Under the pieces are notes generated by a model that ran no database searches, was not told the DNA's origin, and worked only from the letters and a program-made list of their open reading frames with translations. A program made the position numbers and the translations under genes. From Mycobacterium sp. MS1601 (GTDB lineage: Bacteria; Actinomycetota; Actinomycetes; Mycobacteriales; Mycobacteriaceae), in the NCBI RefSeq assembly GCF_001984215.1, contig NZ_CP019420.1, forward strand, positions 4,526,001 through 4,590,000: a stretch of 64,000 bases of DNA. The letters are read 5' to 3'. Positions 38,970 to 57,828 of the stretch are shown here, one piece after another (positions within the stretch are counted from its first letter, which is position 1; each line of letters begins with the position of its first letter).

Positions 38970-39077
38970 GGCGCGTTGAGTGTTCGCCTGCCCGGGGAGG
39001 TCTCGGGCGAGGTGCACGTAGTCGGCGTCGATGCGGCGCGGACACGTGATTCTCACCCCGGGCCGAAGGAAGAATCG

Positions 39078-40139: not shown

Positions 40140-40206
40140 TCCGCCTTCGGTTGGGCGGCGCGCGGAAACGCGCGTCGCCCAATTGATCTCAATCTTTGGA
40201 GAGTTC

Positions 40207-41718
40207 ATGGCGCAGCAGCCTCGACTGACCCTCACCGGTGTCGTCAAGAGCTACGGCGCGGTCAAGGCCATCAGGCATGCCGACTTCGAGGTCCAGCCCG
40301 GGCAAGTGCACGCGCTGGTGGGGGAGAACGGTGCCGGCAAGTCCACGCTCATCAAGATCATCTCCGGTGCCACCACACCTGATGCCGGAGCGGTGACCTA
40401 CAACGGTGAATCGGTGACCATCACCTCGACCGTCGACGCCATCAACCTCGGCATCGCCACGGTGTACCAGGAGCCCCAGCTGTTCAGCGAGCTCACCGTC
40501 GCCGAGAACATCTTCATGGGCCGCGAGATCGTCACCCGCGGTCGTGTCGATTGGGCTGCGCAGAACGAACAGGTGGTCACGCTCCTCGAATCCCTGGACC
40601 TGCCGGCCAAACTCGCCACTGCCGTCGTCGGCAGCCTGTCGGTGGCCACGCAGCAGCAGGTGTCGATCGCCAAGGCGCTGGCCGGGGACGCCGGGGTCCT
40701 GATCCTCGATGAGCCGTCGGCCATCCTGACCGACGCCGAGATCGAGGTGCTGTTCGGCATCATCGCCCGGCTGGCCAAGGACGGCGTGGCCATCATCTAC
40801 ATCTCCCACCGCCTCGACGAGGTGGTCAAGATCGCCGACCAGGTGACCGTCATGCGTGACGGCGCCACCATCGGCACCTATCCGATGGCCGACATGACGG
40901 TGCGTCGTATCGCCGAACTCATGGTAGGTGAAGCGCTTTCGGAGCAGGCCGGACCACGTACCACACCGAAAGGTGAGCCGGTGCTGGAACTGAAGTCACT
41001 GGCCCGCGCCGGATCTTTCCAGGATGTCTCGTTGGTGCTGCGCTCCGGTGAGATCCTGGGGCTCTACGGCCTGGTGGGTTCCGGCGTCGCCGAGATCGCC
41101 GAGTGCATCTACGGATTGGCGAAGACCAGCGGCGGCGAGATCGTGGTCGAAGGACGCCCGGTGGCTCCGCGCTCACCGCGGGAAGCCGCGCGAACGGGCA
41201 TCGCGCTGTTGCCGGCGAACCGCAAAACCGAGGGCATGTTCTCCTTCCAGTCCATCGCGTTCAACGTCTCGATCGGCCACCTGCAAAGGCTCTCGCTAGG
41301 ACGGGCATTCGTCGACCGGAGCAAGGAGCGCAGCGTGGTCAAGGATCTGATGAAACGGCTCGCCGTCCGCGCCTCCGACGAAAACCAAGCTGTCGGAACA
41401 CTATCCGGCGGCAATGCGCAGAAGGTGATGCTGGCCCGCCAGCTTGTCGAGCGGCCCAAACTGCTGCTGCTGGCCGAGCCCACCCAGGGTGTGGACATCG
41501 GCGCCAAGGAAGAGATACACCGCATCATCACCGAACTCGCCGACAATGGCACCGCGGTCCTGGTGGTCACCTCCGACCTGCAGGAGGCACTGCGCATCGC
41601 CGATCGGCTGCTGGTGGTGCGGGCCGGCACCATCACCGCGGAGTTCGGCCCCGACGCCCGGCAGGCCGACGTGCTGGCGGCAGCCGCGGGGGACCGGGAA
41701 GGGTCGGCGACTGCATGA
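40207..41718 (+). CDS. Sugar ABC importer ATPase with two ABC domains (RbsA/MglA type), 503 aa
   Basis: Two ABC domains: the first has Walker [26 protein letters not shown] and ILDEPSA; the second has the degenerate Walker A region GLVGSGVAE and the signature LSGGNAQKVMLARQL with LAEPTQGVDIGAKEE. That intact-plus-degenerate layout is typical of RbsA/MglA/XylG. A ttggaga site precedes the ATG at 40207. It powers the two permeases that follow with four-base overlaps. Confidence 0.93.
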   Translation: MAQQPRLTLTGVVKSYGAVKAIRHADFEVQPGQVHALVGENGAGKSTLIKIISGATTPDAGAVTYNGESVTITSTVDAINLGIATVYQEPQLFSELTVAENIFMGREIVTRGRVDWAAQNEQVVTLLESLDLPAKLATAVVGSLSVATQQQVSIAKALAGDAGVLILDEPSAILTDAEIEVLFGIIARLAKDGVAIIYISHRLDEVVKIADQVTVMRDGATIGTYPMADMTVRRIAELMVGEALSEQAGPRTTPKGEPVLELKSLARAGSFQDVSLVLRSGEILGLYGLVGSGVAEIAECIYGLAKTSGGEIVVEGRPVAPRSPREAARTGIALLPANRKTEGMFSFQSIAFNVSIGHLQRLSLGRAFVDRSKERSVVKDLMKRLAVRASDENQAVGTLSGGNAQKVMLARQLVERPKLLLLAEPTQGVDIGAKEEIHRIITELADNGTAVLVVTSDLQEALRIADRLLVVRAGTITAEFGPDARQADVLAAAAGDREGSATA

Positions 41719-42737
41719 GCACCACACTCGACCCCAACGCCGCCCCCACCGCGGCGCCCGTCAAGACCCGAGGGCGGGTGCTGCCGTCACCGGTGACACC
41801 GGCCGAGATCGCGCTGATCGCCGTCCTGGTGGCGCTGTGGATTGCACTGGCCTTCGCGACGCCGGCCTTCCTGAGCGCAGGCTCGATCATCCCGCTGCTG
41901 GTCGAAGTCGCACCGGTCGCGTTGATCGGCATCGGCATGACGTTTGTGATCATCACCGGCGGCATCGACGTCTCCGTCGCCGGAGCCATCATGGTGTGCT
42001 CGGTGATCACCGCCAAACTGATGCGCGACGCGGCGCTACCGGTGTGGTGGTGTCTGGTCGTGGCGCTCGGGACCGGCGCGGTGCTGGGCCTGGTCAACGG
42101 CGCACTCATCGCCTACGGACGAGTGCACGCCATCATCATCACCTTCGGCACCGCCAACCTGTTCCTGTTCGTGGGGCTGCAGATCTTCGGCTCCACTCCC
42201 GTCGCCGGCATGCCGAACACGTTGGCGTGGTTCGGTCGTGGGATCGACGGCCGCACACTGGGAGTGCCCAACAGCTTCGCCATCACCGTGATCCTGACCG
42301 CCATTGCGTGGTGGTATCTGCGGCACACACCCGGCGGACGGCACTTCTTCGCCGTCGGCGGTGATCCGGTGGCCGCGCGGTTGGCCGGCATCAGAGTGCA
42401 GCGCCGTATCCTCATGGCCTACGTGATCACCGGTCTGCTCGTCGGCCTCGCGTCGATCTTCACCCTGGCCAAGGGCACCTCCAATCTGGATCAGTCGGTG
42501 GGATCGGGTCAGGAACTCGCGGTGATTGCTGCGGTGGTCATCGGCGGCACGTCGATCATGGGTGGACGTGGCTCGGTACTCGGTACCCTGCTGGGGGCAC
42601 TGCTGGTACAGACCGTCAAATCCGGTGTCACACAGCTTGGTTGGCCTTCACAGCTGTCCGACCTGTTCGTCGGCATCTTCATCGTCATCGCCGTCGGAAC
42701 CGACTTGCTCCGTCGACGTGCCAGGAGGGAATCGTGA
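41715..42737 (+). CDS. Sugar ABC importer permease 1 (RbsC type), 340 aa
   Basis: Eight to ten hydrophobic helices with the family segments GMTFVIITGGIDVSVAGAIM, HAIIITFGTANLF and the cytoplasmic contact region AARLAGIRVQRRILMAYVITG, plus GGTSIMGGRGSVLGTLLG near the end. The ATGA overlap with the ATPase gene shows co-translation. It pairs with permease 2 as a heterodimer. Confidence 0.9.
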   Translation: MSTTLDPNAAPTAAPVKTRGRVLPSPVTPAEIALIAVLVALWIALAFATPAFLSAGSIIPLLVEVAPVALIGIGMTFVIITGGIDVSVAGAIMVCSVITAKLMRDAALPVWWCLVVALGTGAVLGLVNGALIAYGRVHAIIITFGTANLFLFVGLQIFGSTPVAGMPNTLAWFGRGIDGRTLGVPNSFAITVILTAIAWWYLRHTPGGRHFFAVGGDPVAARLAGIRVQRRILMAYVITGLLVGLASIFTLAKGTSNLDQSVGSGQELAVIAAVVIGGTSIMGGRGSVLGTLLGALLVQTVKSGVTQLGWPSQLSDLFVGIFIVIAVGTDLLRRRARRES

Positions 42738-43819
42738 CCGCCGACACCGCGGCGCCGCCCGCTGCTGAAAAACCGGCCGGGCGCAGCCGGGCCGACCGGA
42801 TTCTCGAGGCTGTCCTGACCCAGCGCATCGTGTTGTTGGGTATCCTCATCGTGATCGTCGTCGGCTGGCTGATGTATCTGAGCGCCAACGGTTATCTCAG
42901 CGGTGACTACGACTTCGACTACATGTCGGCGGTGTTGATCGACGCCGTACCTCTGGCGATGCTGGCCTTCGCACAGCTGGTGGTCATTGTGTCCGGCCGA
43001 GGCGGAATCGACCTGTCCGTCGGTGCCATGGTGTCTCTGGTGGGCATGATCTTCGGATTCGCCTACGGCCAGTGGGGATGGCCACTGCCGATCGCGGTGC
43101 TGCTCGCCATCGCCGTCGGTGCGCTGCTGGGTGCCGTCAACGGATTCCTGGTGGCCCGCATCGGTTTTCCCGCACTGATTGCGACACTGGCCACCTATTA
43201 CGCGTACAAGTCCATCGCCATGGTGATCAACGGGCAGAAGCCGATAAACAGCCCGCAGATCCAGGATCTGTACTCCCTCACCAGTTCGGTCGAGGTCCCG
43301 GTGATCGGGGCGTACATCCCCGACGTGCCGTTGGGCGTGTTCACCTTCCTGATCCCGGTACTGCTGGTGCTGTGGCTGGCGCTGGGACGGGGGACCTACG
43401 GGCGGCGGCTCTACGCCGTTGGCACCAACGACGTCGCGGCGCGCTGGGCCGGGGTCGACGTGGCGGCCACGCGGATGCGGGCCTACGTGACATCCGGGGT
43501 GCTGTCCGGACTGGTCGCGGTATACATCACCGCGCAATTCGCCTCCGCGCGACCCGATGCCGGCACCGCGGGCAACGGGCTGGCACTGCCCGCAATCACC
43601 ATCGCCGTGCTCGGCGGTGTCGCGATCACCGGCGGTATCGGGCGCATTGCCGGTGTGCTGCTGGCCACACTGCTGATCGTGTGGCTGAACGCGGGCATCA
43701 TCTTGTACTTCTCGGGCAACACCGGAACCCAGTTCCAACTGCTCGCGCTGGGTGTGGTCCTGATCTTGGCCGCCCTGCTCAACGGATTGACCACTCGAAG
43801 GTTCCGCGGTGGCGACTGA
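42734..43819 (+). CDS. Sugar ABC importer permease 2 (RbsC type), 361 aa
   Basis: Same family as the preceding permease: QLVVIVSGRGGIDLSVGAMV, PALIATLATYYAYKS, ARWAGVDVAATRMRAYV and GGVAITGGIGRIAGVLLATLL. The GTG at 42734 overlaps the previous stop (GTGA). Two unlike RbsC-type permeases in one importer is the arrangement of AI-2 (LsrC/LsrD) and some polyol or branched sugar importers rather than plain ribose systems. Confidence 0.9.
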   Translation: MTADTAAPPAAEKPAGRSRADRILEAVLTQRIVLLGILIVIVVGWLMYLSANGYLSGDYDFDYMSAVLIDAVPLAMLAFAQLVVIVSGRGGIDLSVGAMVSLVGMIFGFAYGQWGWPLPIAVLLAIAVGALLGAVNGFLVARIGFPALIATLATYYAYKSIAMVINGQKPINSPQIQDLYSLTSSVEVPVIGAYIPDVPLGVFTFLIPVLLVLWLALGRGTYGRRLYAVGTNDVAARWAGVDVAATRMRAYVTSGVLSGLVAVYITAQFASARPDAGTAGNGLALPAITIAVLGGVAITGGIGRIAGVLLATLLIVWLNAGIILYFSGNTGTQFQLLALGVVLILAALLNGLTTRRFRGGD

Positions 43820-43844
43820 GCCGCCTGTTCGAAACGGAGAAATA

Positions 43845-44612
43845 GTGACTGTTCTTGATGCCTTCTCGCTGGCCGGGAAGCGCGCCCTGGTGACCGGTGG
43901 TAACCGCGGCCTCGGATTTGCCTTCGTGCGGGGCCTGGCCGAGGCCGGCGCCGACGTCGTCTTCGTCTCCCGCGACGTCGACCGCAACGCCGCCGCCATC
44001 GCCGAGTTGGCCGACGAGGGGCTGAAAGTCCAAGCGTTCGAGGTGGACGTCACCGCCGACGAGGGGCCGGCCGCGGCCATCGAGGGTGCGGTGGAACGGC
44101 TCGGTGGGCTGGACCTGTTGCTCAACAACGCGGGTCTGGCCATCCACCAGCCCGCTCTTGACATCTCCGACGACGACTGGGACCTGGTGTTCAACGTCAA
44201 CACCCGGTCGTTGTGGCGGCTCAGCAAGCGCGCCGGTGCCTACATGATGGAGCACGGCGGCGGCAACATCCTCAACATCGGATCGATCAGCTCGATCATC
44301 GTCAACCGCCCGCAGTGGCAAGCGTCCTACAACGCTTCCAAGGCGGCGGTGCACCAGCTGACGAAATCACTGGCTGCCGAGTGGGCGCCGTACAACATCC
44401 GCGTCAACGCGCTGGCCCCCGGCTACGTGAAAACCGAGATGGCCCCGGTGGACCGGCCGGAGTTCCGTCAGCACTGGATCGAGGACGCCCCGATGAAGCG
44501 CTACGCGATGCCCGACGAGATCGCACCGACGGTGGTGTACATGGCCTCCGACGCGTCGGCGTTCATGACGGGATCGGTCGTGGTGATCGACGGGGGTTAC
44601 ACCGTCTACTGA
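43845..44612 (+). CDS. Short-chain dehydrogenase (sugar-alcohol/gluconate type), 255 aa
   Basis: Classical SDR: cofactor loop TGGNRGLG, LLNNAG, active-site Ser in GSISS and YNASK, ending with the SDR C-terminus FMTGSVVVIDGGYTVY. The GTG at 43845 has a cggaga site upstream. As the last gene of the importer operon it most likely performs the first oxidation of the imported sugar or polyol. Its 3' end overlaps the convergent thioesterase gene by seven bases. Confidence 0.87.
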   Translation: MTVLDAFSLAGKRALVTGGNRGLGFAFVRGLAEAGADVVFVSRDVDRNAAAIAELADEGLKVQAFEVDVTADEGPAAAIEGAVERLGGLDLLLNNAGLAIHQPALDISDDDWDLVFNVNTRSLWRLSKRAGAYMMEHGGGNILNIGSISSIIVNRPQWQASYNASKAAVHQLTKSLAAEWAPYNIRVNALAPGYVKTEMAPVDRPEFRQHWIEDAPMKRYAMPDEIAPTVVYMASDASAFMTGSVVVIDGGYTVY

Positions 44613-44986
44613 GACGCGGCAAGCGCTGTGTCGATGACGGAACGTTGCACGACGGCACGGGTGTGCCTGACCTGAGCAACGACCTGCCCGCCGGCGTCGA
44701 CGACCTCGACGGTGAACGACGCTTTCCTGCCGCGGCGGTCCTCCAGTGTCGCGCGTGCGGTGAGCATGGCACCCACGGGTGATGGCCGGTCGTGGCTGAG
44801 CTCGACCCCGGCGCCCACGGTGATCTCGTCGCGGGCCAACTGCGGCGCCAGAACACTGTGGCAGACCAACTCGGCCATCGACAGGATGAACGGCGTGGAA
44901 GCTGCCGCCGGGAACTCGGGCCCCCACGCAGCGGCGGTATCCTGATGGCCGACTGTGCGGCTCAATTCCGCTGTCTTCTTGGACAA
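44606..44986 (-). CDS. Hotdog thioesterase of the fluoroacetyl-CoA thioesterase (FlK) type, 126 aa
   Basis: Similarity to FlK is seen in STPFILSMAEL, VELSHDRPSPVGAML and the closing strands. The Thr-Glu-His triad of FlK (T42, E50, H76) corresponds to T31, E39 and H65, with identical spacing of 8 and 26 residues. It should hydrolyse an acyl-CoA thioester in the cytoplasm. The start is a TTG at 44986 with an aaagga site 8 nt upstream. It is the last gene of an operon with a CoA ligase, a crotonase and a HAD dehalogenase-like enzyme, so it may release the acid product or protect CoA from a dead-end ester. Confidence 0.82.
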   Translation of the reverse strand: MSKKTAELSRTVGHQDTAAAWGPEFPAAASTPFILSMAELVCHSVLAPQLARDEITVGAGVELSHDRPSPVGAMLTARATLEDRRGRKASFTVEVVDAGGQVVAQVRHTRAVVQRSVIDTALAASQ

Positions 44987-45016
44987 ATCGTGTTCCTTTC
45001 GTGGGGTGTGTACACG

Positions 45017-45865
45017 TCAGCCGATCAGCTGAAGTGGGCCGGGTTCGGCGGCTGAGGGATCAACACCGTTGGCTTTGAGGATCTCGGCGATGGTGCCGTT
45101 GTCGCGCAGCGTGACAATGTTGTCCGAGACTGCGGTGAAGAGTTCCGGGTTGTCTTTCGACATCGGAAAGCACACCTGGCCCGGGGCCTCACTGGAAGCC
45201 ACCCGTGGATCCGGCGCCGGTCGCTCGATGTCCCAGTCGGTGCTCTTCTGCTCCTTGGCGAAGGATGCAGTGCCGATGGAATCGATCGCGGAGTCCAGTC
45301 GTCCTGATTCGAGATCGTTGTACACCGCGGTGGGATTGGGATAGATCTTCAGATTCGGCCCGAAGACCCCTTGCAGTTCTTCATTCCACATGTAGCCGTC
45401 GACCGTGCCGACGGTTCGCCCCTGCAACTCGTCGAACGTGGTGGCCCCGTCGTTGGAGACGATGACGATCTGATCACTGAACACCGGACCCGCCAGGGAC
45501 AGCACCTCCGCGCGCGCCGCGGTGCAGTACCAGTCGCCGGCAGAAATGTCGGTGCGCCCGTTCTGCGTTGCCGGAATGACCGATGCGGTGTCCAGTGGTT
45601 GCGATGACAGGCGCAGGCACTCCATGTCGGCGACGTTGTGCAGGATCTCACCCTCGATCCCGGAAATCGAGGTGCCTTCGACGACGAGGAAGGGAGGGAA
45701 ATTGTAGGTGGCCACCGTGAGAGTTCCGGGGGTGACGGTGCGAATGCCGGGATGCGCCGGGGTGCATTCGGAAGCGGATCCGGTGTCATCGGTGGACGAT
45801 CCGCACGCTGTGAGCGCTGCGAGTAGGGACACCGTTGCCGCCGTGATGAGAAGTTGGGAGCGCAT
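45017..45865 (-). CDS. Amino-acid-type ABC importer substrate-binding lipoprotein, 282 aa
   Basis: Signal peptide with lipobox LTACG (Cys at about residue 21) and a type II periplasmic-binding domain of the polar amino acid family (GTLTVATYNFPPFLVVEG, TFDELQGRTVGTVDGYMWNEEL, NGTIAEILKANG at the end). The ATG at 45865 is used because the signal peptide starts there. The ligand may be an organic acid rather than an amino acid, given the neighbouring catabolic genes. Confidence 0.88.
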   Translation of the reverse strand: MRSQLLITAATVSLLAALTACGSSTDDTGSASECTPAHPGIRTVTPGTLTVATYNFPPFLVVEGTSISGIEGEILHNVADMECLRLSSQPLDTASVIPATQNGRTDISAGDWYCTAARAEVLSLAGPVFSDQIVIVSNDGATTFDELQGRTVGTVDGYMWNEELQGVFGPNLKIYPNPTAVYNDLESGRLDSAIDSIGTASFAKEQKSTDWDIERPAPDPRVASSEAPGQVCFPMSKDNPELFTAVSDNIVTLRDNGTIAEILKANGVDPSAAEPGPLQLIG

Positions 45866-45900
45866 GGACGGAATGCCTTTCGTGGTAGTGGGTCGATGGG

Positions 45901-46551
45901 TCAAGCGTGTTGGCGATGCAGCACCTTCTCGAGCCTTTCCGTGGCCAGGCTCGCCGAGATGGTGACCAAGGCGTAGAGCGCGCCGGCGATGATGAAGAGA
46001 TTGAAGTAGTGGAAGGTGTTGTTGGCGATGGACTTTGCTTGAGACGTCAGCTCGGGCACGGCAATGACGAACGCCAGCGACGTGGCTTGGAACATCAGGA
46101 TGCAGAAGCCGAGAAGCGGTGGCAGGGAGATCCGGATGCCTTGCGGGATCACGACGTCACGTAGGACGTGGACGCTGCTCATTCCCAGAGCCTGACCGGC
46201 CTCGACCTCCCCGCGCGGGACTGCCTGCAGGCCGGCACGCATGATCTCACTGGTGTATGCCGCGGTCGTGAGCGCCAACGCGATGGTGGCGCACACGAAC
46301 GCTGTCAGAGTCACCGGAATGCCGTTGTAGACGATCTGCAGTAGTACCAGAACTGGAGTGCCGCGGCCGATTTCGATGACAGTGATCACCAGCGAGCGCA
46401 CTGCCTTTCGTTGTGACGATGCGCCCACCGCCAGTGACAATCCTCCTGGCAGACCCAGAAGCAGAGCCATGAACGTCAAACGCAGACTGGTCCACAGACC
46501 GGCCAACAGCTGGTCGTGGTGGGTCACCCAGTCATTCCAGATGTCAGTCAT
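45901..46551 (-). CDS. Amino-acid-type ABC importer permease, 216 aa
   Basis: HisM/GlnP-type permease: five hydrophobic helices and the EAA loop EVEAGQALGMSSVHVLRDVVIPQGIRISLPPLL, including the conserved Glu-Ala-Gly and a Gly at the turn. The early segment EIGRGTPVLVLLQIVYNG is typical. The ATG at 46551 overlaps the stop of the other permease gene by four bases, so the two form a heterodimer. Confidence 0.9.
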   Translation of the reverse strand: MTDIWNDWVTHHDQLLAGLWTSLRLTFMALLLGLPGGLSLAVGASSQRKAVRSLVITVIEIGRGTPVLVLLQIVYNGIPVTLTAFVCATIALALTTAAYTSEIMRAGLQAVPRGEVEAGQALGMSSVHVLRDVVIPQGIRISLPPLLGFCILMFQATSLAFVIAVPELTSQAKSIANNTFHYFNLFIIAGALYALVTISASLATERLEKVLHRQHA

Positions 46552-47201
46552 CACGCCACCCTTTCCATCATGCGGGACTCGAGCCGGCGGGCCGCCCACG
46601 CCGAGGGGAAAGTCAGTGCTACGTAATAGACACCGGCCACGAAGAACGGTGTGACCGAGCTGGTGTTGCTGGAGACGGTGGTGGCGTAGTAGGTGATCTC
46701 GAAGACACCGATGGTGGACGCCAGGGAGGAGTCCTTCAACAGACCGATGGCGTACGACGCGGACGCCGGAATGGCGACGCGGACCATCTGTGGCGCGACG
46801 ATCCGCGAGGCCGTGTCAACCTGGGACATGCCCAGCGCTCGGCTTGCTTCGAACTGACCGTGGTTCACCGCACGCAGAGCGCCCCGGTAGATCTCGGCCA
46901 TGTAGGCCGCCGACACCAACCCGATGGCCAGCACGGCGGAGCGCCACGACGTGAACACCGAACCGAGTGCGGGATTGAACTGGGTCGGGCCGTTGTAGAT
47001 CAGGAACAACCATATGATCAACGGGACGCCTCGGGCCAACTCGATGAAGACCCGCGCCGCGGAACGCAGGACCCAGAAGCGGGTGATGCGCAGCACCATC
47101 AGGGGTAGTCCGAGAATGGCGCCGATCGCAAAGCCCACCACCGTGAGCTGAAGCGTGGCCACCACGCCCTGCGCGACGATCAACCAGGTATCGATGTTCA
47201 C
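46551..47201 (-). CDS. Amino-acid-type ABC importer permease, 216 aa
   Basis: Second HisQ/GlnP-type permease: [45 protein letters not shown] and a matching EAA loop ([20 protein letters not shown]). Translationally coupled to the ATPase gene upstream and the other permease downstream, each by ATGA. Confidence 0.9.
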
Positions 47202-47965
47202 CGTCGGTCCAGGACGGCCCGTAGGAACTCGCGGGTGCGAGGACGACTCGGTGATGCGAAGATGTCGTGCGGTGTGCCCTCTTCGAGGATTCCGCCCTCG
47301 GCCATCACCACCAGGTGGTCACTGACATCGCGGGCGAACTGCATCTCATGGGTCACCACCACCATCGTCATTCCGTCGGCGGCGAGTTCTCGCATGACGT
47401 GAAGCACCTCCAGACCTACCTCGGGGTCCAGCGCCGAGGTCGGCTCGTCGAACAACATGACCTTGGGATCCAGTGCCAACGCGCGGGCGATCGCGATCCG
47501 TTGTTGCTGTCCGCCGGAGCATCGTCCCGGATACTGAGTTGCCTTGTCGGCCAGTCCCACTCGCTTCAGCAGGACATTGGCCCGCTCCTCGGCTTCCTCG
47601 CGGCTGCGGCCGAGGACCCGCTGCTGGGGGAGTGTGACATTGCGCAACACGGTCATGTGGGGGAAGAGATTGAACGACTGGAACACCATCCCAACGCGGG
47701 ATCGCAAGGCCGCCAACTCTTTTGCCCTGATAGTGTGGTCGACATGGATGGTGACCCCGTCCACCGTGACAGTGCCCGAGGAGGGACGCTCCAGGAGGTT
47801 GATGCAGCGCAGCAGGGTGCTCTTTCCCGCTCCACTCGGACCGATCAAGGCAACCACCTGGCCGGTGTCGACCGACAGCGAGACGTTGTTCAACACGATG
47901 TGGTCCCCGAATCGCTTCTCGACGGTGTCCAGGACGATCGCGGTTGGCGACTGCTCGCTGGCCAT
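47198..47965 (-). CDS. Amino-acid-type ABC importer ATPase (GlnQ/HisP type), 255 aa
   Basis: Walker [13 protein letters not shown]-loop [17 protein letters not shown], signature [17 protein letters not shown], Walker [15 protein letters not shown] and the H-loop VTHEM, all typical of the polar-amino-acid family. The ATG at 47965 has an aaggtgag site. It lies between the catabolic enzymes (HAD, crotonase, ligase) and the permeases in one leftward operon. Confidence 0.93.
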
Positions 47966-48018
47966 CTCACTCACCTTCGTAGCGCGGCGACCAGCGAAGC
48001 GGTGCGGGATGGACATCG

Positions 48019-48708
48019 CTACAGCCCGCGCACGGTGGCCGGCAGGGCGGCGAGGTCGGCGATGGTAGCCGTCACGCTGCTCTGTCCGCTGTTGCTCAGG
48101 TGGATCCACTCGTTGTCCTGGGGATCGGCGGAACGGTGCACGAAGATGGTGCGGAATCCGCGGCGGTGTGCGGGTTCGCAGTCGTGCCACACGCTGTTGC
48201 CGATGTGAATCCAGTCGGCGGGCGCGGGGTTGTGCCGGGTCAGGAATTCGTCGAACAGCCCGTCACCGGGTTTGTAGCTCTGCACTTCCTCGGCGGTGAT
48301 GACTTCGTCGAAGACCACCGGAAGTGGCCCGGCGACGGTTTGCGCGAACATGTCCACATCGGTGTTGGTCAGGATGCCGAGCTTGTATCCGTCGTCCTGT
48401 AACTGCTGGAGCGCGGGAACTGAGTCCGCGAACGCCGGCCAGGTCGGTAGGGTATCGGCGAGGATGCTGAAACGATTGTTGGCCAACGCGATTCCGGTCT
48501 TCTCGCTGGCGCGGCGCAATCCCTCGGTCAGGATGGTGCGGTAGTTTCGAAACGGTGGTTCGGCTTCGATCTCCGGTTCGCACGCGTAGTACGCGTCGAT
48601 CAGTTCGGCTGATCTGCCAGGTGCGACGCTCTCCAGCGCCGCGGTCATCCCGGTTCTCCAGTCGATGATGGTGCCATAGCAGTCGAATGTCAGCCAGCGG
48701 TCGGCCAT
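48019..48708 (-). CDS. HAD-superfamily type II haloacid dehalogenase-like hydrolase, 229 aa
   Basis: The HAD motifs are in place: nucleophile Asp9 in [11 protein letters not shown], motif II Thr114-Asn115 in [10 protein letters not shown], motif III Lys146 in VQSYKPGDG, and motif IV Ser172 and Asp176 in [13 protein letters not shown]. The FDCYGT form, without the DxD of phosphatases, is that of type II 2-haloacid dehalogenases. Many relatives of this sequence type are unassigned phosphatases or hydrolases, so halide release is only a hypothesis, strengthened by the FlK-like thioesterase in the same operon. Confidence 0.83.
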
Positions 48709-48742
48709 GGTGGTGTTCCTTCCTGGTGGTGTGGGGCTGAGG

Positions 48743-49525
48743 TCATGCCGGTTCGGAGCCGGCGGAGCGATCCCTGAATGCGTTCATGAGGGCCACCGAC
48801 TCGGGATGGAAGTGCGCGACTCGAACTTCCTCCAGTTCGGACTCCAGGGATTTGGTGAACGACTGGTCGAGTCCGCGCCGCAGCGCCTCCTTCACGGTGG
48901 CGATGGCATGTGGAGGACGGGAGGCCAGTTTGGCGGCGAGCTCTTGGACTGCGATGTCGAGCTGCTCGGGTTCGACGACGCGGCTGACCATCCCCATCGA
49001 ATGTGCCTGGGAAGCCGAGATCTGCTCGCCGAGCAACACGAATTCCGAAGCTTTGATGCGACCGATGGTGCGTGCCAACAGAAACGAGGTGCCACCCCCC
49101 ATGCCTGTACCGATCAGCACCTCGGGAAGGCTGAACCGGGCCTCACTGCTGGCCACGATGAAATCGCAGGCCAGCGCAATTTCGCAACCGGCGCCCACCG
49201 CGAGTCCATTGATGGCCGCAATCACAGGGATCGGTAGCGAGGTGAGGGTGGCGGCGAGGCGTTGCTGTGCCTGGATCTGACGTAGGCCACCGTCGTCGCG
49301 AACTTCCTTGAGGTCGAAACCGGCGCAGAACGCACGTCCGGTGCCGGTGAGGATCGCAGCTCGCCGACCGTCGGAGTGTGCACGCGTCAGCGCGGATATC
49401 AGTGCGTCCACCAGGGTTTCAGACAGTGCGTTGAGGCGGTGCGGCCGGTTGAGCCGCAGAATGGCGACGGTGTCTTGCACTGCGGTGGTGACGACCAGTT
49501 CCTCGTCGTTGTTCGGGTGGCTCAT
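48743..49525 (-). CDS. Enoyl-CoA hydratase (crotonase) family enzyme, 260 aa
   Basis: Crotonase fold with RLNRPHRLNALSE, GTGRAFCAGFDLKE, the first catalytic Glu at 115 (GAGCEIALACD) and the second at 135 (FSLPEVLIG), so hydratase chemistry is likely. The aspartate of 4-chlorobenzoyl-CoA dehalogenase is not present at the matching place (GTGMGGGTS), which argues against that reaction. It begins 7 bases after the ligase stop and precedes the HAD gene by 34. Confidence 0.87.
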   Translation of the reverse strand: MSHPNNDEELVVTTAVQDTVAILRLNRPHRLNALSETLVDALISALTRAHSDGRRAAILTGTGRAFCAGFDLKEVRDDGGLRQIQAQQRLAATLTSLPIPVIAAINGLAVGAGCEIALACDFIVASSEARFSLPEVLIGTGMGGGTSFLLARTIGRIKASEFVLLGEQISASQAHSMGMVSRVVEPEQLDIAVQELAAKLASRPPHAIATVKEALRRGLDQSFTKSLESELEEVRVAHFHPESVALMNAFRDRSAGSEPA

Positions 49526-49532
49526 GGTTCTC

Positions 49533-51116
49533 CTAGAGGCTGGGTGCCGCGGCGATGTTCTTCAGGGCGCGTTTGTCCACCTTGCCGATGGCAAGCCGGG
49601 GGAGTTCCGAGCAGAGCTCGAACCGCTTCGGGATCTTGTAGTTGGCGAGGCGGCCGCGCAGGAAACTGCGGAGAGCGTCAACGTCGAGTTCGGACTTGTT
49701 GTGCGGGATCACAAAGGCGACACCGACTTCGGAGTACAGGTCGTCGGCGACGCTCACGACTGCCGCCGATGAGACCTGGGGATGCGCCTCGAGTGCGATC
49801 TCGATTTCGCGTGGGTAGACGTTGTACCCACCCGACTTGAACATATCGGTGAGTCTGCCGGCCAACCGGATGCGACCGTCGCGGTCCATGCGGCCGACAT
49901 CGCCGGTGTGTAACCAGCCGTCGGCGTCGATGGCCTCTGCGGTGGCGTCAGGTCGATTCAGATAGCCCAACATGACGAACGGTCCACGAGTCTGGATCTC
50001 GCCCTCCTCGTCGACACCGCACTGCTCACCATCGGATCGCGCGATGCGCACCTCATATCGTGCGTCGGGCCGGCCGACCGTGTCGGCCAGTGCGTCGATG
50101 TCATCGTCGTCGTCGGTGTAGATGATCGATCCGACGGTCTCGGTCATGCCGTAGCTTGTGCACACCACGGGGACGCGCTTTTGCAACTCGAGGATGAGCT
50201 CACGAGATGCGGCGGCTCCACCCCAGATGACGCGCTTGAGGCTGGACAGATCTGCTGTTGCCCATTCGGGTGCTCCGATCACCAGAAGGAACATCGTGGG
50301 GATGGCCAACCAGTACTCGATGCGTTCGCGGGCGATGACGTCCAAGACCCCCGAACGATCGAATCTCTCCATGTAATGCACTGTGCCCCCGGCAACGACC
50401 ACGGAACTGCTGATGTCCCCGAGACAGCCGATGTGATTGATGGGGAGGTCGCACAGCATCCGCGGCCGTTCCTGATACCAGCGCTCGGCCTGGATGACTG
50501 AACACTGCACCAGGCCACGGTGAGGCAGGAGCGCGCCTTTGGGGCGCCCTGATGTGCCGGACGTGTAGACGAGGACAGCGGGGTCTTCACTGGCCACGGC
50601 GGCTTCGGCACGCTGAAGCGCCTCAGCCTCCAGGGTCTGGCCCGCCTGAAGAAATGATGTCCAGCTGTGGCCCGGGGTGATGACCGGACTGGTCGAATGA
50701 ACCCGCTCGCGTAGCGATTCCAGGGTTTGGCGATAGCCCTCGGTGAGCCCCATGAGAACTTTCGGCCGAGAGTCGCCCACCACGTGGTCCAACTCGGCGG
50801 GGGTGTACTTCGGGTTCAGCCCCTGCCACACAGCTCCTATCCTGGCCGCGGCCAGGAAGGTCACGTAGAACTCGGGCCGGGGGTTGCCCAGGACGGCGAC
50901 TCGATCGCCACGCTGCACCCCTGCGGCGAGAAAGGCACGCGCCAGCGCCGCGGACTGTTCTTGAACCTGGATACGGGTGAGTCGGATCTCGGCGTGGGTC
51001 AGCATTTCGTGATCCGGATGCAGCTGCGCCCAGTAGTGGCAATAGTCGCTGATGCGCGCCAGATCAGGCATGCGCAGGGGCGTGGGTGACAAATCAGCTC
51101 GCGAGAATGTTGACAC
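49533..51116 (-). CDS. Acyl/aryl-CoA ligase (AMP-binding), 527 aa
   Basis: Adenylation motifs VYTSGTSGRPKG, YGMTETVG, DGWLHTGDVGRMDRDGRI and the C-terminal lysine in LAIGKVDKRAL. It activates an organic acid as its CoA ester, and heads the operon that holds the crotonase, HAD enzyme, ABC importer and thioesterase. The start is uncertain: the GTG at 51116 lies inside the promoter-proximal inverted repeat and may be leaderless, while an ATG at 51071 would shorten the protein by 15 residues. Confidence 0.87.
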   Translation of the reverse strand: MSTFSRADLSPTPLRMPDLARISDYCHYWAQLHPDHEMLTHAEIRLTRIQVQEQSAALARAFLAAGVQRGDRVAVLGNPRPEFYVTFLAAARIGAVWQGLNPKYTPAELDHVVGDSRPKVLMGLTEGYRQTLESLRERVHSTSPVITPGHSWTSFLQAGQTLEAEALQRAEAAVASEDPAVLVYTSGTSGRPKGALLPHRGLVQCSVIQAERWYQERPRMLCDLPINHIGCLGDISSSVVVAGGTVHYMERFDRSGVLDVIARERIEYWLAIPTMFLLVIGAPEWATADLSSLKRVIWGGAAASRELILELQKRVPVVCTSYGMTETVGSIIYTDDDDDIDALADTVGRPDARYEVRIARSDGEQCGVDEEGEIQTRGPFVMLGYLNRPDATAEAIDADGWLHTGDVGRMDRDGRIRLAGRLTDMFKSGGYNVYPREIEIALEAHPQVSSAAVVSVADDLYSEVGVAFVIPHNKSELDVDALRSFLRGRLANYKIPKRFELCSELPRLAIGKVDKRALKNIAAAPSL

Positions 51117-51379: not shown

Positions 51380-52024
51380 GTGTCAGATCCTTTGGGCCGT
51401 GTTTCGACGGTGGATGCGCTGGTGACATCGATCCGACAGCGTGTTCTCTCCGGAGACTTCGGTCCGGGTAGCAAGCTGCAAGAAGTGCCGCTGGCGCAGA
51501 GCTACGGCGTCGGGCGTTACTCGCTTCGGGGCGCGCTGCGGGTACTCACCGACGAAGGACTGCTGAGGTACGAGCAGAATCGCGGTGTCTTCGTGCCGTC
51601 ACTGGCTCGCGATGACGTCGCAGATCTGTTCAAGTTCCGGGCCGCCCTGGAGATCGAGGCTGCGCGACTGGCCATCCGTGCCGGGGCGTCGTTGGCGGAT
51701 GCGGAGAAGATGGTCGAGCAACTCGAAGCGATGACCGGTGACGAGTCATGGGCGGAGACCATCGCCGTCGACCTGGGTTTCCACCGCGAAGTTGTTCGCG
51801 CAGGGGGGAGTTCGCGACTGTTGAGGGCGTACGTAGCCATGTCCTCGGAGTTACAGCTGATCCTTGCCCGCAGCAGGCAGCACTACGAAGACCCCAAACG
51901 AATCGGCCGCGAACACCGCGAGATTCTCAATGCTTTGGCCAGTGGCGACCTCATGGTCGCCGAGAAGGCGCTGCGATACCATCTCGAGGTGGCAGTAGCC
52001 GAACTGTTGACACTGTTCGACTGA
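51380..52024 (+). CDS. GntR-family regulator, FadR/FCD type, 214 aa
   Basis: Winged helix at residues 10-70 (ALVTSIRQRVLSGDFGPGSKLQE, VGRYSLRGALRVLTDEGLLRYEQNRGVFVP), then a helical FCD ligand domain with its metal-binding residues (Asp130 and His134 in DLGFHREVV, and a later His in REHREILNAL). The GTG start has a gaagga site. FCD regulators respond to acids or acyl-CoA-like ligands. It is divergent from the ligase operon, so it most likely controls it in response to the substrate acid. Confidence 0.87.
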   Translation: MSDPLGRVSTVDALVTSIRQRVLSGDFGPGSKLQEVPLAQSYGVGRYSLRGALRVLTDEGLLRYEQNRGVFVPSLARDDVADLFKFRAALEIEAARLAIRAGASLADAEKMVEQLEAMTGDESWAETIAVDLGFHREVVRAGGSSRLLRAYVAMSSELQLILARSRQHYEDPKRIGREHREILNALASGDLMVAEKALRYHLEVAVAELLTLFD

Positions 52025-52053: not shown

Positions 52054-52566
52054 CTATTCGGTCACGCGAGGAGGCGGGGTGGACCGTCCCCAGCCGGCGT
52101 CCTGGGTGAAATGGTCGAGTAGCGGCAGGATGCGGTAGGCCAGCGGTACGGTCAGCGACAGTGACGTGTTCGAGTGTGCCACACCAGAAATAGACACCAC
52201 TCGCTCGATCAGTCGTTGGAGTTCGGAGTGTGTGCGCGTGGCGACGCGGATCAGCAGGTCCGCTTGGCCGGTGGTTGCGTGAATCTCCATCACCTCCGGT
52301 ATGGCAGTCAAAGACCGTACCACCGACTGCAGTTCGCCCTGGACCAGCTCCAAGGTGATGAACGCCTGAACCGCGACTCCTGCCGCCGCGAGATCGACCT
52401 CCGGACGGAAACCGGCCACCAGTCCGCTCTCGCGAAGGCGCGTGAGGCGGGTCTGGACGGTGTTCCGCGCGACGCCCAGTTCGTTCGACAACTCCATCAC
52501 ACCCAGGCGCGCATCACGGCTCAGTAGCCGAATCAACTGGACGTCGAGCCGATCCAAGGTGAGCAT
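52054..52566 (-). CDS. Lrp/AsnC-family transcriptional regulator, 170 aa
   Basis: Helix-turn-helix at residues 4-45 (LDRLDVQLIRLLSRDARLG, MELSNELGVARNTVQTRLTRL) then the RAM domain (VQAFITLELVQGELQSVVRSL, VMEIHATTGQADLLIRVATR). The ATG at 52566 has a ggaggt site. It lies divergent from the indolepyruvate oxidoreductase gene, and Lrp proteins of this kind often sense the amino acid whose catabolic enzyme is next door. Confidence 0.88.
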   Translation of the reverse strand: MLTLDRLDVQLIRLLSRDARLGVMELSNELGVARNTVQTRLTRLRESGLVAGFRPEVDLAAAGVAVQAFITLELVQGELQSVVRSLTAIPEVMEIHATTGQADLLIRVATRTHSELQRLIERVVSISGVAHSNTSLSLTVPLAYRILPLLDHFTQDAGWGRSTPPPRVTE

Positions 52567-52610
52567 GGTGTTGACCTCCGCCAATCTGTGCGACGCGCAG
52601 CTGACCACAG

Positions 52611-52740: not shown

Positions 52741-55700
52741 ATGACAGGCACCAGCCAGTTGCGCGCGCCCCACGTAGCCCAGTCGACTTTGGCGCAACGG
52801 TATCGAACTGATTCTGGGCCGGTGTTGATGACCGGTGTGCAGGCCTTGGTCCGTCAGCTTGTCGAACAACATGACCGCGACCAGCGCGAGGGGAGTCGGA
52901 CAGCCACCTTTGTATCGGGGTATCAAGGGAGCCCGTTGGCCGGCTTCGACCGGCTACTCGCGTCGTCCCCCGAGGTGCTGGCGCGGCATGAGGTCCGGCT
53001 GGTTCCGGGTATGAACGAGGAGTTGGCTGCCACCTCGGTGTGGGGCAGCCAACTCGAGCTTCCCAGCGCAGCACGACGGTACGACGGAGTGGTCGGCGTC
53101 TGGTACGGCAAGGGTCCGGGTTTGGATCGTGCCAGCGACGCCATGCGGCACGGGGCGATGTACGGGGCGCATCCCCGTGGTGGGGTACTGGTGCTGGTAG
53201 GAGACGATCCTGCGGCCAAATCATCGAGCGTTCCCTGTGCCAGTGAGCGATCCCTGGCTGCGCTGTCGATGCCAATCCTGTTCCCCCGCAACGCCGAAGA
53301 GATCGTGGCGTTCGGTCTTTACGGGGTGGCATTGTCCCGGGCGTCGGGATGCTGGGTGTCTATGAAGCTGATCGCAGACGTTGCCGATGGATTGTGGACT
53401 CTGGAGCGAGACTTCGCCGACCTCGAAATCAACGTGCCGGCCCTGGAATGGGACGGTCGACCGTGGGAGTATCGGCAGCGGGTGCTCGCAGCCCCTCCGG
53501 ACAGCCTGCTTGCCGAGGCAGACCTGTACGGGCCCCGCTGGGCGATGGTGGAAGCGTTCGCCACCGCCAACAGTATTGATTGCATCGAGATCGATCCTGC
53601 TGCAGCATGGCTGGGAATCGTGGCAGTGGGCTCAGCCTACGACAGCGTCCGCGAAGCCCTTCACCTTCTGGGATTCGACGAAGAAGCACTGTTGTCCAAT
53701 GGTATTCGAATACTCAGAGTGGGCATGCCCTACCCGCTGTGTGTGGACAGAGTTCGGACACTCGCGCGTGGGGTGCAGAAGGTGCTGGTGGTCGAAGACA
53801 AATCGTCATTTGTCGAAGGCCAGGTCAAAGAGGCATTGTTCGCCCTCGATGCCCGCCCAGAGGTTCTGGGTAAGCGGGATACGCATGGCCGCCGACTGGT
53901 TCCACCGGACGGCGAACTCACCGCCGCGCGTTTGGAGGCGTCACTCCGCACCGTTCTTGGTCATCGAGTTCCACCTGCCTCGGTGGTGCGCCAGTCGATT
54001 TCTCTGACGGCCCTGCCCACCAAGCGAACGGCCTACTTCTGTTCCGGCTGCCCCCACAACCGCTCGACCGCAGTCCCGGAGGGGTCGTTGGCAGCAGGTG
54101 GTATCGGATGCCACACGCTCGTCACGATGTCTGCGCGCACGGACAGTCAGGTCACCGGGCTGACCCAGATGGGCGGTGAAGGTGCCCAATGGATCGGACA
54201 GGCGCCGTTCACCGATGTCGACCACATTTTCCAGAACGTCGGAGACGGAACATATTTTCACTCCGGCCAGTTGGCGGTTCAGGCTTGTGTGGCTGCAGGC
54301 GTGAACATCACCTACAAGATCCTCTACAACGACGTGGTTGCGATGACCGGAGCGCAAGAAGCCGAGGCGGGTTTGAGTGTTCCCGCACTGACGCACAAAC
54401 TGGCCGCGGAGGGGGTTGCCGAGATCATTGTGTGCGCGGACGAGCCGGATCGACACCGGCACAGCAGTTTTGCCAGTGGAGTCAAACTGTGGGATCGCAG
54501 TCGCCTCGACGAGGCGCAGCGCCGGCTGCGTTCGACCAAGGGGGTGACGGTCTTGATCTACGACCAGCACTGTGCCGCAGATGCCAGGCGTCAGCGTAAA
54601 CGCGGCAGCCTGCCGCGACGCCCCACCCGGGTGTTCATCAATGAGGCGGTTTGCGAAGGGTGCGGTGATTGCGGCGTCAAGAGCAACTGTTTGTCGGTTC
54701 AACCCGTGGACACCGAGTTCGGTCGCAAGACCAGGATCGACCAAACTACCTGCAACACCGACTATTCGTGTCTCGACGGGCAGTGCCCGTCATTCGTCAC
54801 CATCGACGAGCCCGCAGAGGCCCGATCATCGAAGACAACGTGGCCCGTGGCGCCCGAGGCGCCGTCGCCGCTGCTGCCGAGGATCGCTCGCTCACACGAC
54901 ATCTTTCTGGCGGGAATCGGCGGCACTGGCATCGTCACGGTCAACCAGATCCTCGGTATGGCGGCACTGCGGGCCGGACTGCAGGTCGAGGGCCTCGATC
55001 AGACGGGGTTGAGCCAGAAGGCCGGACCTGTGACGTCCCATCTGCGGATCAGTAGCGAACCATTAAAATCCACCAACAGGGTGACTCCCGGTACCGCCGA
55101 TGTGGTGCTGGCCTTTGATCTGCTGACTGCTGCCGATTCGAAGTACGTGGGCGTTGGTGATCCGTCCACCACGGTGACCATCGCATCCGTCAGCAGAACC
55201 CCGACCGGGGACATGGTGTACGACCCGGCCGTTGCCTACCCGACAGATGAGTCTCTCCTCGAACGGTTGAGCCAGGGGTGCAGGTCGATGGTGACTCTCG
55301 ACGCTCTCGCTGCCGCTCAGACATTGTTCGGGAACACCAGTTGCGCCAACCTTCTGGTCGTCGGCGCTGCTTTCCAGGCCGGCGCGCTCCCGATGTCCGC
55401 AGCGTCCATCGAAGAAGCCATCGAGATCAACGGCATCGCAGTCGAGGCCAACAAGGCGGCCTTCCGATGGGGCCGCGCCGCTGTCGCGGACCCACAGTCC
55501 TACCGCAGCGCCACCACGGTGCAACGTAGGCAATGGCGCAGCGACATCCATGTACCCGACGCAGTGCTGTCAGGAATCACCGTGAACGGAGAAACCGGAG
55601 ACTTGTTACGCCGCCGCGCCGCTCAATTGACGGCGTACCAGAGTTCGGACCACGCCCGGGCTTACGCGATTGCCATCCAGAAAGTCTGGGACGCTGAACG

Positions 55701-56250
55701 GGCACTCGGATCGCGCACGGAGTTCAGCTCTGCCGCCGCGCGGGGCCTTCATCGGTTACTTGCCTACAAAGATGAGTACGAAGTCGCACGGATGCTGACG
55801 GATCCGGCGTTCATCGACGCGGTCCGCGCCGAAGTGCCCGGGGGTGCCAAGATGACCTATCGCCTACACCCGCCGCTGCTGCAAGCGCTGGGGCGACGCC
55901 GAAAGATCGGGTTCACACCCAGGACGCACTTCGTACTCCGTCTGCTGGCGCAGGGAAAGGCATTGCGGGGTACACGCCTCGACGTATTTGGTTACACCAA
56001 AATGCGTAAGCTGGAGCGTGCCCTGGCAGCGCACTACTCGGAATTGCTGGTAGAACTCACGGAGAATCTTTCGGAGCGTACCTACGGCCGAGCAGTCGAC
56101 GTGGCCGGTGCCGCGGATCTGGTGCGCGGGTACGAAGAGGTCAAGCTGCGCACTGTGATGACCTACGTCAGCCGACTCGACGACTTGGGCGTGGATACCG
56201 CAGCCTTGCGGGCCTTCCTCCCGGAAACTGCAGGACAAGCACACGACTGA
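52741..56250 (+). CDS. Single-chain indolepyruvate ferredoxin oxidoreductase, 1169 aa
   Basis: One chain holds the whole enzyme: an N-terminal pyruvate:ferredoxin-oxidoreductase-type domain (FVSGYQGSPLAGFDRLL, GKGPGLDRASDAMRH), a cysteine-containing thiamine pyrophosphate region (YFCSGCPHNRST, GGIGCHT, ALTHKLAAEG), a ferredoxin-like iron-sulfur segment at about residues 635-690 (CEGCGDCGVKSNC ... TTCNTDYSCLDGQC), then the gamma domain (LAGIGGTGIVTVNQILG, GLSQKAGPVTSHL). It decarboxylates aryl- or branched-chain 2-oxoacids to acyl-CoA. Long enzymes of about 1150-1190 residues are the known fused form. The ATG at 52741 is used. It is divergent from an Lrp gene, so a role in aromatic or branched amino acid degradation is likely. 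Confidence 0.9.
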   Translation: MTGTSQLRAPHVAQSTLAQRYRTDSGPVLMTGVQALVRQLVEQHDRDQREGSRTATFVSGYQGSPLAGFDRLLASSPEVLARHEVRLVPGMNEELAATSVWGSQLELPSAARRYDGVVGVWYGKGPGLDRASDAMRHGAMYGAHPRGGVLVLVGDDPAAKSSSVPCASERSLAALSMPILFPRNAEEIVAFGLYGVALSRASGCWVSMKLIADVADGLWTLERDFADLEINVPALEWDGRPWEYRQRVLAAPPDSLLAEADLYGPRWAMVEAFATANSIDCIEIDPAAAWLGIVAVGSAYDSVREALHLLGFDEEALLSNGIRILRVGMPYPLCVDRVRTLARGVQKVLVVEDKSSFVEGQVKEALFALDARPEVLGKRDTHGRRLVPPDGELTAARLEASLRTVLGHRVPPASVVRQSISLTALPTKRTAYFCSGCPHNRSTAVPEGSLAAGGIGCHTLVTMSARTDSQVTGLTQMGGEGAQWIGQAPFTDVDHIFQNVGDGTYFHSGQLAVQACVAAGVNITYKILYNDVVAMTGAQEAEAGLSVPALTHKLAAEGVAEIIVCADEPDRHRHSSFASGVKLWDRSRLDEAQRRLRSTKGVTVLIYDQHCAADARRQRKRGSLPRRPTRVFINEAVCEGCGDCGVKSNCLSVQPVDTEFGRKTRIDQTTCNTDYSCLDGQCPSFVTIDEPAEARSSKTTWPVAPEAPSPLLPRIARSHDIFLAGIGGTGIVTVNQILGMAALRAGLQVEGLDQTGLSQKAGPVTSHLRISSEPLKSTNRVTPGTADVVLAFDLLTAADSKYVGVGDPSTTVTIASVSRTPTGDMVYDPAVAYPTDESLLERLSQGCRSMVTLDALAAAQTLFGNTSCANLLVVGAAFQAGALPMSAASIEEAIEINGIAVEANKAAFRWGRAAVADPQSYRSATTVQRRQWRSDIHVPDAVLSGITVNGETGDLLRRRAAQLTAYQSSDHARAYAIAIQKVWDAERALGSRTEFSSAAARGLHRLLAYKDEYEVARMLTDPAFIDAVRAEVPGGAKMTYRLHPPLLQALGRRRKIGFTPRTHFVLRLLAQGKALRGTRLDVFGYTKMRKLERALAAHYSELLVELTENLSERTYGRAVDVAGAADLVRGYEEVKLRTVMTYVSRLDDLGVDTAALRAFLPETAGQAHD

Positions 56251-57669: not shown

Positions 57670-57709
57670 TGAACAGTCTGTATATAGTGATAAATGGACG
57701 AACTGTTCA
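57670..57709. promoter_or_regulatory. Inverted repeat upstream of the MFS operon, candidate TetR operator
   Basis: Perfect 8-base arms TGAACAGT (57670-57677) and ACTGTTCA (57702-57709) with a 24-base centre that includes a tatata segment likely to be the -10 (tatatagt at 57681). An in-frame ATG at 57694 falls inside this site and was rejected as the start. A related TGAAC-n-GTATA sequence stands upstream of the TetR gene at 61.5 kb. Confidence 0.65.
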
Positions 57710-57828
57710 CATCGGGTGTGCAATCACGCTTTCGAATGCCGGACCAGGTTGGACAGGCTGTGCCACAAGACTTTTCGCAGACAACGACGCGAGCGATCGA
57801 TGAGACTGACAAGTCAGGACCCTTGACC

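Follow-up and report, generated by a model that had tools for sequence, protein, structure and literature searches.

A rare, co-inherited actinobacterial gene module with exchangeable transporters joins an azetidine-carboxylate-hydrolase-like HAD enzyme to an FlK-type thioesterase

This study analyzed a 64,000-nucleotide stretch of Mycobacterium sp. MS1601 (GCF_001984215.1, contig NZ_CP019420.1, positions 4,526,001 to 4,590,000; hereafter the window), which carries an eight-gene operon encoding an acyl-coenzyme A (CoA) ligase, a crotonase, a HAD hydrolase, a complete ATP-binding cassette (ABC) importer and a thioesterase resembling the fluoroacetyl-CoA thioesterase FlK. Comparison with other genomes demonstrated that these genes form a real and rare co-inherited module, found on plasmids twice and containing an unusual pairing of enzymes. 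With a probability that we put at roughly 40%, the operon and the neighboring gene for a fused indolepyruvate ferredoxin oxidoreductase (IOR) serve to take up a small non-protein amino or imino acid and to degrade it through CoA-linked steps.

Eight loci were compared, namely the window, L039, L040/L076, L129, L072/L130, L081, L082 and L084. The ligase, crotonase, HAD hydrolase and FlK-like thioesterase were found together in seven of the eight, in agreement with the single unit proposed in the original prediction, and the transporter was exchanged among loci: an amino-acid ABC importer in three, a Liv-type ABC importer in two, and a major facilitator superfamily (MFS) carrier in three. The whole operon together with the IOR gene was observed in Mycolicibacterium komossense (L039, L077), where the order is the same and the eight genes are 75–88% identical; therefore, the arrangement is more than chance. 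The Aeromicrobium metagenome-assembled genome (MAG; L040, L076) has the whole set, the IOR and a second HAD-crotonase pair. On the plasmid pRho-VOC14-L of Rhodococcus opacus VOC-14 (L129), the genes are IOR, Lrp, MFS, FlK, GntR, HAD, ligase, crotonase and a second MFS, and on the plasmid pdjl-6-4 of R. qingshengii JCM 15477 (L072/L130), crotonase, ligase and IOR stand head to tail and are accompanied by MFS and HAD, then transposase-like frames (judged by eye), GntR, FlK and MFS. In two genomes of the Aeromicrobium MAG's family (L081, L082), FlK, HAD and GntR form a separate unit, which is oriented divergently to the crotonase, the ligase and a Liv-type importer. The locus L084, in a genome of the window's family, has HAD, FlK, GntR, MFS and transposase-like frames (by eye), with no ligase or crotonase within the 20 kb taken.

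As the loci were found with HAD or FlK queries, the co-occurrence of these two is partly built in; the ligase, crotonase, IOR and GntR were not queries leading there. The three top genomes for HAD (among 301) are the same as the three top genomes for FlK (among 331), with a slim margin on the HAD side, the third genome scoring 174.2 bits and the fourth (G076) 172.4 bits, and the 20 kb surrounding the fourth-ranked HAD yielded no FlK. As controls, 14 of 16 loci with distant HADs (25–40% identity, up to 16.6 kb, named genomes) had no module FlK, ligase or crotonase, and none of three 20-kb loci of the family with sister-type HADs (L073–L075) had FlK. Apart from the window's own, the FlK loci of roughly 3.5 kb contained no HAD, a control that is uninformative because the true module loci L088 and L089 of that size also show none. 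The thioesterase subtype is rare. In a profile search, module-grade matches (at least 188 bits; next 77.9) occurred in 3 of 331 genomes of the window's family and in 1 of 286 genomes of the phylum (next 96.2); sequence searches found it in three of the 245 genomes examined from the Aeromicrobium MAG's family and, with E values limited to 1e-22, which could overlook the Rhodococcus FlK subtype, in 1 of 394 genomes of the class. Each count includes the genome of the query or center itself. In a protein database of 5.8 billion, 215 candidates were scored and 21 FlK relatives were obtained at E 1e-15, including the window's own. Literature searches on the enzymes found no published description of this gene set.

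Several observations were made beside the module genes in these loci. In R. opacus (L129 6586-7982) and M. komossense (L039 14516-15963), the module is flanked by a pair of genes that, as judged by eye, encode a two-subunit CoA-transferase. The HAD of the R. qingshengii plasmid lies in one frame with a C-terminal fragment of an AMP ligase (L072 9375-10526; P0099, PF13193), likely the remnant of a second ligase. Adjoining the module in L081 (1-7179; G794) are glutamate-synthase-like, amidotransferase and glutamine-synthetase-like genes and a flavin adenine dinucleotide (FAD) oxidoreductase, which by eye recall N-methylglutamate synthase clusters.

In the window, the operon is real and lies where the original prediction placed it, with all genes on the minus strand and family models that match the gene naming (Table 1). 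The small gaps claimed were confirmed by calculation from gene ends and likely starts: 7 bases between ligase and crotonase, 34 between crotonase and HAD, 53 between HAD and ATPase, an overlap of ATPase and permease, 35 between permease and substrate-binding protein (SBP), and 30 between SBP and thioesterase. Because of this spacing, the eight genes are probably co-transcribed, as inferred previously. Promoter and terminator scans of the window gave signal no higher than shuffled level, and no operon promoter was identified.

Table 1. Genes of the operon and its surroundings, with positions in the window.
Feature	Position	Strand	Assignment and remarks
Acyl-CoA ligase	49533..51116	-	Operon gene 1; Pfam AMP-binding 256.4 bits and AMP-binding_C
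Crotonase	48743..49525	-	Pfam ECH_1 188.6 bits; Glu at both hydratase catalytic positions
HAD hydrolase, azetidine-carboxylate-hydrolase-like group	48019..48708	-	Pfam/NCBIfam, solved relatives, residues, fold comparison
ABC importer ATPase	47198..48190 (open frame); likely start 47965	-	Pfam ABC_tran
ABC importer permease 1	46551..47201	-	BPD_transp_1; TIGR01726 77.8 bits (cut-off 42.2)
ABC importer permease 2	45901..46599; likely start 46551	-	BPD_transp_1; TIGR01726 70.8 bits (cut-off 42.2)
SBP, family 3	45017..45904; likely start 45865	-	SBP_bac_3 64.1 bits
FlK-family hotdog thioesterase	44606..44986	-	Last operon gene; PF22636 72.6 bits (cut-off 27)
GntR/FCD regulator	51380..52024	+	Pfam; upstream of and divergent from operon
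Lrp/AsnC regulator	52054..52608	-	Pfam; paired with IOR
Fused IOR	52741..56250	+	NF009589 1328.8 bits (cut-off 816)
MFS carrier, NmrA-like and luciferase-like monooxygenase genes in a row	57694-60877	+	Downstream of IOR
Sugar-type ABC cassette and short-chain dehydrogenase/reductase (SDR)	38976-44612	+	Peripla_BP_4 binding protein, double ATPase, two permease-like frames; SDR

None of the 25 NCBIfam models listed for the ligase exceeded its own cut-off, and the closest solved relatives are feruloyl-CoA synthetase and 4-coumarate-CoA ligase. A comparison with plasmid sequences returned 3000 records, all below 60% identity, which is too generic for placing the locus. Of the eight crotonase copies compared, seven carry Glu at both hydratase positions, and the second Aeromicrobium copy has Asp at one of them. 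The fcb operon for 4-chlorobenzoate consists of a ligase, a crotonase-fold dehalogenase and a thioesterase, and the present operon likewise unites a ligase, a crotonase and a hotdog thioesterase; it differs in that its crotonase keeps both hydratase glutamates, as had been noted before, its thioesterase is of the FlK family, and a HAD hydrolase and an amino-acid importer are added.

Concerning the HAD hydrolase, the original prediction regarded it as an enzyme of the 2-haloacid dehalogenase form, and this assignment was not upheld. The protein scores 117.1 bits for the NCBIfam model TIGR01428 (haloacid dehalogenase type II), below the curated cut-off of 125.4. Alignment was performed with the sequence of L-DEX YL. 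Like the L-2-haloacid dehalogenases (L-DEX YL, DehIVa), the window HAD has the common fold, the Asp nucleophile, Tyr at +2, and the Thr, Lys and second Asp (L-DEX Thr14, Asn119, Lys151 and Asp180 positions); however, Arg41 is replaced by Tyr, Tyr157 by Phe, Ser175 by Gly and Asn177 by Ser. At the Arg41 position, the eight module HADs aligned, a set that leaves out R. opacus, have Tyr in the window, M. komossense and the first Aeromicrobium copy and His in the other five. The published Asp10, Arg41 and Ser118 of L-DEX fit the numbering of the sequence used, and Arg41 is the halide-binding residue (PMC6100074).

The nearest solved relatives are instead L-azetidine-2-carboxylate hydrolase (3smv/8ywo, with 3smv at 94.0 bits; AzhA of A. 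nidulans) and the structures 8hp5-7 (8hp5 at 94.4 bits), and the next solved enzyme reaches 49.5 bits. The structure 8hp7 was trapped with 4-amino-2-hydroxybutanoic acid, which is the product of L-azetidine-2-carboxylate hydrolase. In addition to the HAD fold, the Asp nucleophile and Tyr at +2, the window HAD and both solved enzymes have in common Cys10, Trp17, Gly20, Glu44, His168 and His175, and enzymes of this type displace an amine at the alpha carbon. Dehalogenases and azetidine hydrolases could not be told apart by fold comparison. These likenesses, together with the amino-acid type of the importer, would also fit a true utilization operon for L-azetidine-2-carboxylate or a nicotianamine-type compound, in which the HAD opens the ring to 4-amino-2-hydroxybutyrate and the CoA enzymes process a C3 acyl-CoA made by the IOR. 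We consider this very unlikely, since closer homologues of the hydrolase (49–52%) are present in three other aligned genomes of the family, and since the known route proceeds via γ-aminobutyrate (GABA)-type transamination (PMC8016842) and has no obvious need of a ligase, a crotonase and a thioesterase. The window HAD is only 30–35% identical to these enzymes, falls in a separate tree group, and is accompanied by CoA enzymes and an importer.

The thioesterase was examined in an alignment of 13 sequences, of which five (the window, Aeromicrobium, R. qingshengii, G794 and G874) have known context and eight are database proteins. The Thr-Glu-His triad, which the original prediction had recognized with the spacing of FlK, was present in all 13 (T31, E39 and H65), and it is nearly universal in the FlK family: among the 42 loci that the profile searches yielded, all have the Glu and the His and 41 have the Thr. 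These 42 comprise three module loci (L087–L089) and 39 others, to which 39 of the 66 other matches led. We take Phe36 of FlK, the gate, to be important for fluorine selectivity and Val54 to be a pocket residue. The likeness extends to the Phe36 position (Phe25 in the window, six residues before the triad Thr), which is Phe in 12 of the 13 module-type proteins, Leu in one, and Phe in all three module loci of the profile search, versus none of the 39 other family members. The Val54 position is His in 13 of 13. With Phe at the former position and His at the latter, the thioesterase represents the FlK-like branch of the family, and its pocket is altered. It shares with FlK of Streptomyces cattleya (PDB 3kv7, others) the triad, the Phe36-Pro37 position, the spacing and PF22636, whereas the direct comparison gives just 37.6 bits. 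In another branch of the family, found in the Actinomycetota loci L090–L128, 27 of the 39 loci carry Asp in place of Phe36.

These data bear on the substrate class that the original prediction had favored. The likely import and CoA-dependent use of a small acid is supported, but the halogenated nature of that acid finds no support in the HAD residues, and the halogen claim is weakened, having lost its main support in the HAD and gained some from the thioesterase. A module that takes up a halogenated acid, or a halogenated amino acid, and detoxifies it in a CoA-dependent manner could, for example, convert X-pyruvate to X-acetyl-CoA by the IOR, then to X-acetate by the FlK-type thioesterase and to glycolate by the HAD. 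We regard this as decidedly unlikely in view of the replaced Arg41, Ser175 and Asn177, the HAD score under the curated dehalogenase cut-off, and the His that takes the place of Val54 in the thioesterase.

The importer fits the polar amino acid ABC importer type, with an SBP_bac_3 protein, two HEQRo-type permeases and a GlnQ-type ATPase, for which GlnQ is the top NCBIfam model (303 bits; cut-off 379). The SBP residues T128, R131 and D208 are invariant in 26 of 26 aligned sequences, and the R131 and D208 positions presumably hold the alpha-carboxylate and alpha-amine, respectively, as in amino-acid binders. The fold is that of amino-acid, opine and ectoine binders, and the fold comparison named no ligand. 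A binding protein of Arthrobacter is 51% identical. Since the SBP keeps this Arg and Asp and the HAD shares residues of the azetidine-hydrolase type, our best guess is that the SBP ligand and the substrate are amino-acid-like. SBP relatives (37–42%) also occur on alphaproteobacterial plasmids (124 matching records), where FAD oxidoreductases adjoin in all five stretches viewed, electron transfer flavoprotein (ETF) and purU genes in one, and hydantoinases in two; because of these neighbors, the plasmid contexts hint at N-substituted amino acids. Among the distant SBP relatives in L066–L071 (29–41%), several lie near FAD amine-oxidase-like genes, and L070 and L071 additionally contain a HAD gene and one for a flavin oxidoreductase that, by eye, looks like N-methylproline demethylase.

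The linked set likely extends past the eight genes to the GntR and Lrp/AsnC regulators and the fused IOR. A GntR gene is close to the module enzymes in all eight loci, in two subtypes about 30% identical; the IOR is near them in five of the eight, within the stretches taken, and an Lrp gene stands beside it in four of those five. The window IOR contains POR, TPP and DUF6537 domains and is the sole match in its own genome. As it lies nearby in five of eight loci, the IOR probably belongs to the pathway. Enzymes of this family convert 2-oxo acids to CoA derivatives, and EdcC of Novosphingobium tardaugens is a member that acts in 2-oxo acid decarboxylation within an aerobic catabolic cluster for estrogen degradation (PMC7793797); the window operon differs in having no ring-cleaving dioxygenase, and the window IOR gene has an adjacent Lrp regulator.

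From the genes, their co-occurrence, the transporter swaps and the residue patterns, we infer a substrate and a set of steps, listed here in no fixed sequence. The ABC importer would take up an alpha-amino-acid-like compound. The Asp of the HAD may attack a small carboxylic acid at its alpha carbon and displace the substituent there, leaving a 2-hydroxy acid; as leaving group, an amine (in a ring or as N-substituent) would be more likely than a halide. The IOR could convert the matching 2-oxo acid to an acyl-CoA by oxidative decarboxylation, and no aminotransferase or dehydrogenase for making this 2-oxo acid was identified in the operon. The ligase and crotonase may activate and hydrate, or dehydrate, the acid, and the FlK-type thioesterase would hydrolyze a small alpha-substituted acyl-CoA, preventing CoA trapping and entry into the tricarboxylic acid (TCA) cycle.

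Several points weigh against this reading. In a tree of 17 sequences, the module HADs fall outside the clade of the solved azetidine hydrolases, which cluster with L021, L026 and L032 (support 90/89); the group uniting the module HADs is weakly supported (82/92), and the window HAD is 35% identical to 3smv versus 49–56% within the azetidine-hydrolase clade. The SBP search matched 7 of 397 genomes of the order, and in six stretches from five other genomes, the SBP relatives (29–41%) had neither FlK nor IOR nearby; therefore, importers of this type are not bound to the presence of the enzymes. The IOR occurs in 8 of 41 genomes of the genus, and in the other seven (L140–L146), no HAD or FlK was found within the 17–20 kb around it, one of these stretches starting 1.5 kb before the IOR at a contig edge. 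An Lrp match stands beside the IOR in six of these seven, so that IOR-Lrp pairs exist without the module, and no IOR was seen in three of the eight module loci in the stretches taken. As the IOR thus also has an independent existence, its link to the module is weakened but not removed. The ligases are of two sub-types that are just 25–27% identical, and the substrate may thus differ between loci. The MFS carriers of the two Rhodococcus loci need not transport amino acids; those of R. qingshengii have as best models, below cut-off, metabolite/H+ symporters (shikimate, ProP) and an aromatic-acid symporter. The GABA-type route known for azetidine-carboxylate, cited above, is a further difficulty. 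Moreover, the ligase and thioesterase work oppositely on CoA esters, no pathway that we drafted accommodates all five enzymes unless a further step is added, and the substrates proposed for all enzymes are read from sequence likeness.

Some of these points would suit an ordinary acid-catabolism operon (branched-chain, dicarboxylic or aromatic), in which the HAD serves house-cleaning, the thioesterase recycles CoA and the IOR is a coincidental neighbor: the families of CoA ligases and crotonases are large and generic, the IOR stands without the module elsewhere, and a Rhodococcus MFS carrier is of the aromatic-acid type. Such an operon is nevertheless unlikely, given that the rare FlK subtype occurs in the same three of 331 family genomes that have the top HAD scores and that FlK, HAD and GntR form a unit of their own in L081 and L082. 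Pathways for carnitine or betaine, dimethylsulfoniopropionate (DMSP) or S-methylmethionine, N-methyl amino acids and nicotianamine were also considered and not adopted, each fitting some of the genes. Around the operon, the SDR end of the sugar-type cassette is convergent with it and overlaps the thioesterase gene by 7 bases. Two of the IOR stretches of the genus contain a partial ligase and a crotonase at 33–34%, which resemble ordinary paralogues.

A module that takes up and degrades a small non-protein amino or imino acid thus remains our preferred explanation. In its fullest form, which we consider unlikely, this would be a mobile, transporter-swapping actinobacterial module that consumes a toxic plant or microbial non-protein amino acid via small substituted acyl-CoAs, with a new HAD subfamily for C-N displacement at the alpha carbon and an FlK-gated thioesterase outside the known fluorine setting. 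The annotation "haloacid dehalogenase type II" should be treated with caution and not be read as dehalogenase. About 20 close relatives of the thioesterase are available, allowing the purpose of the Phe gate to be addressed directly. The module brings together an importer, an IOR and two kinds of enzyme that are otherwise familiar chiefly from coping with small toxic acids, namely the azetidine-hydrolase-like HAD and the FlK-type thioesterase.

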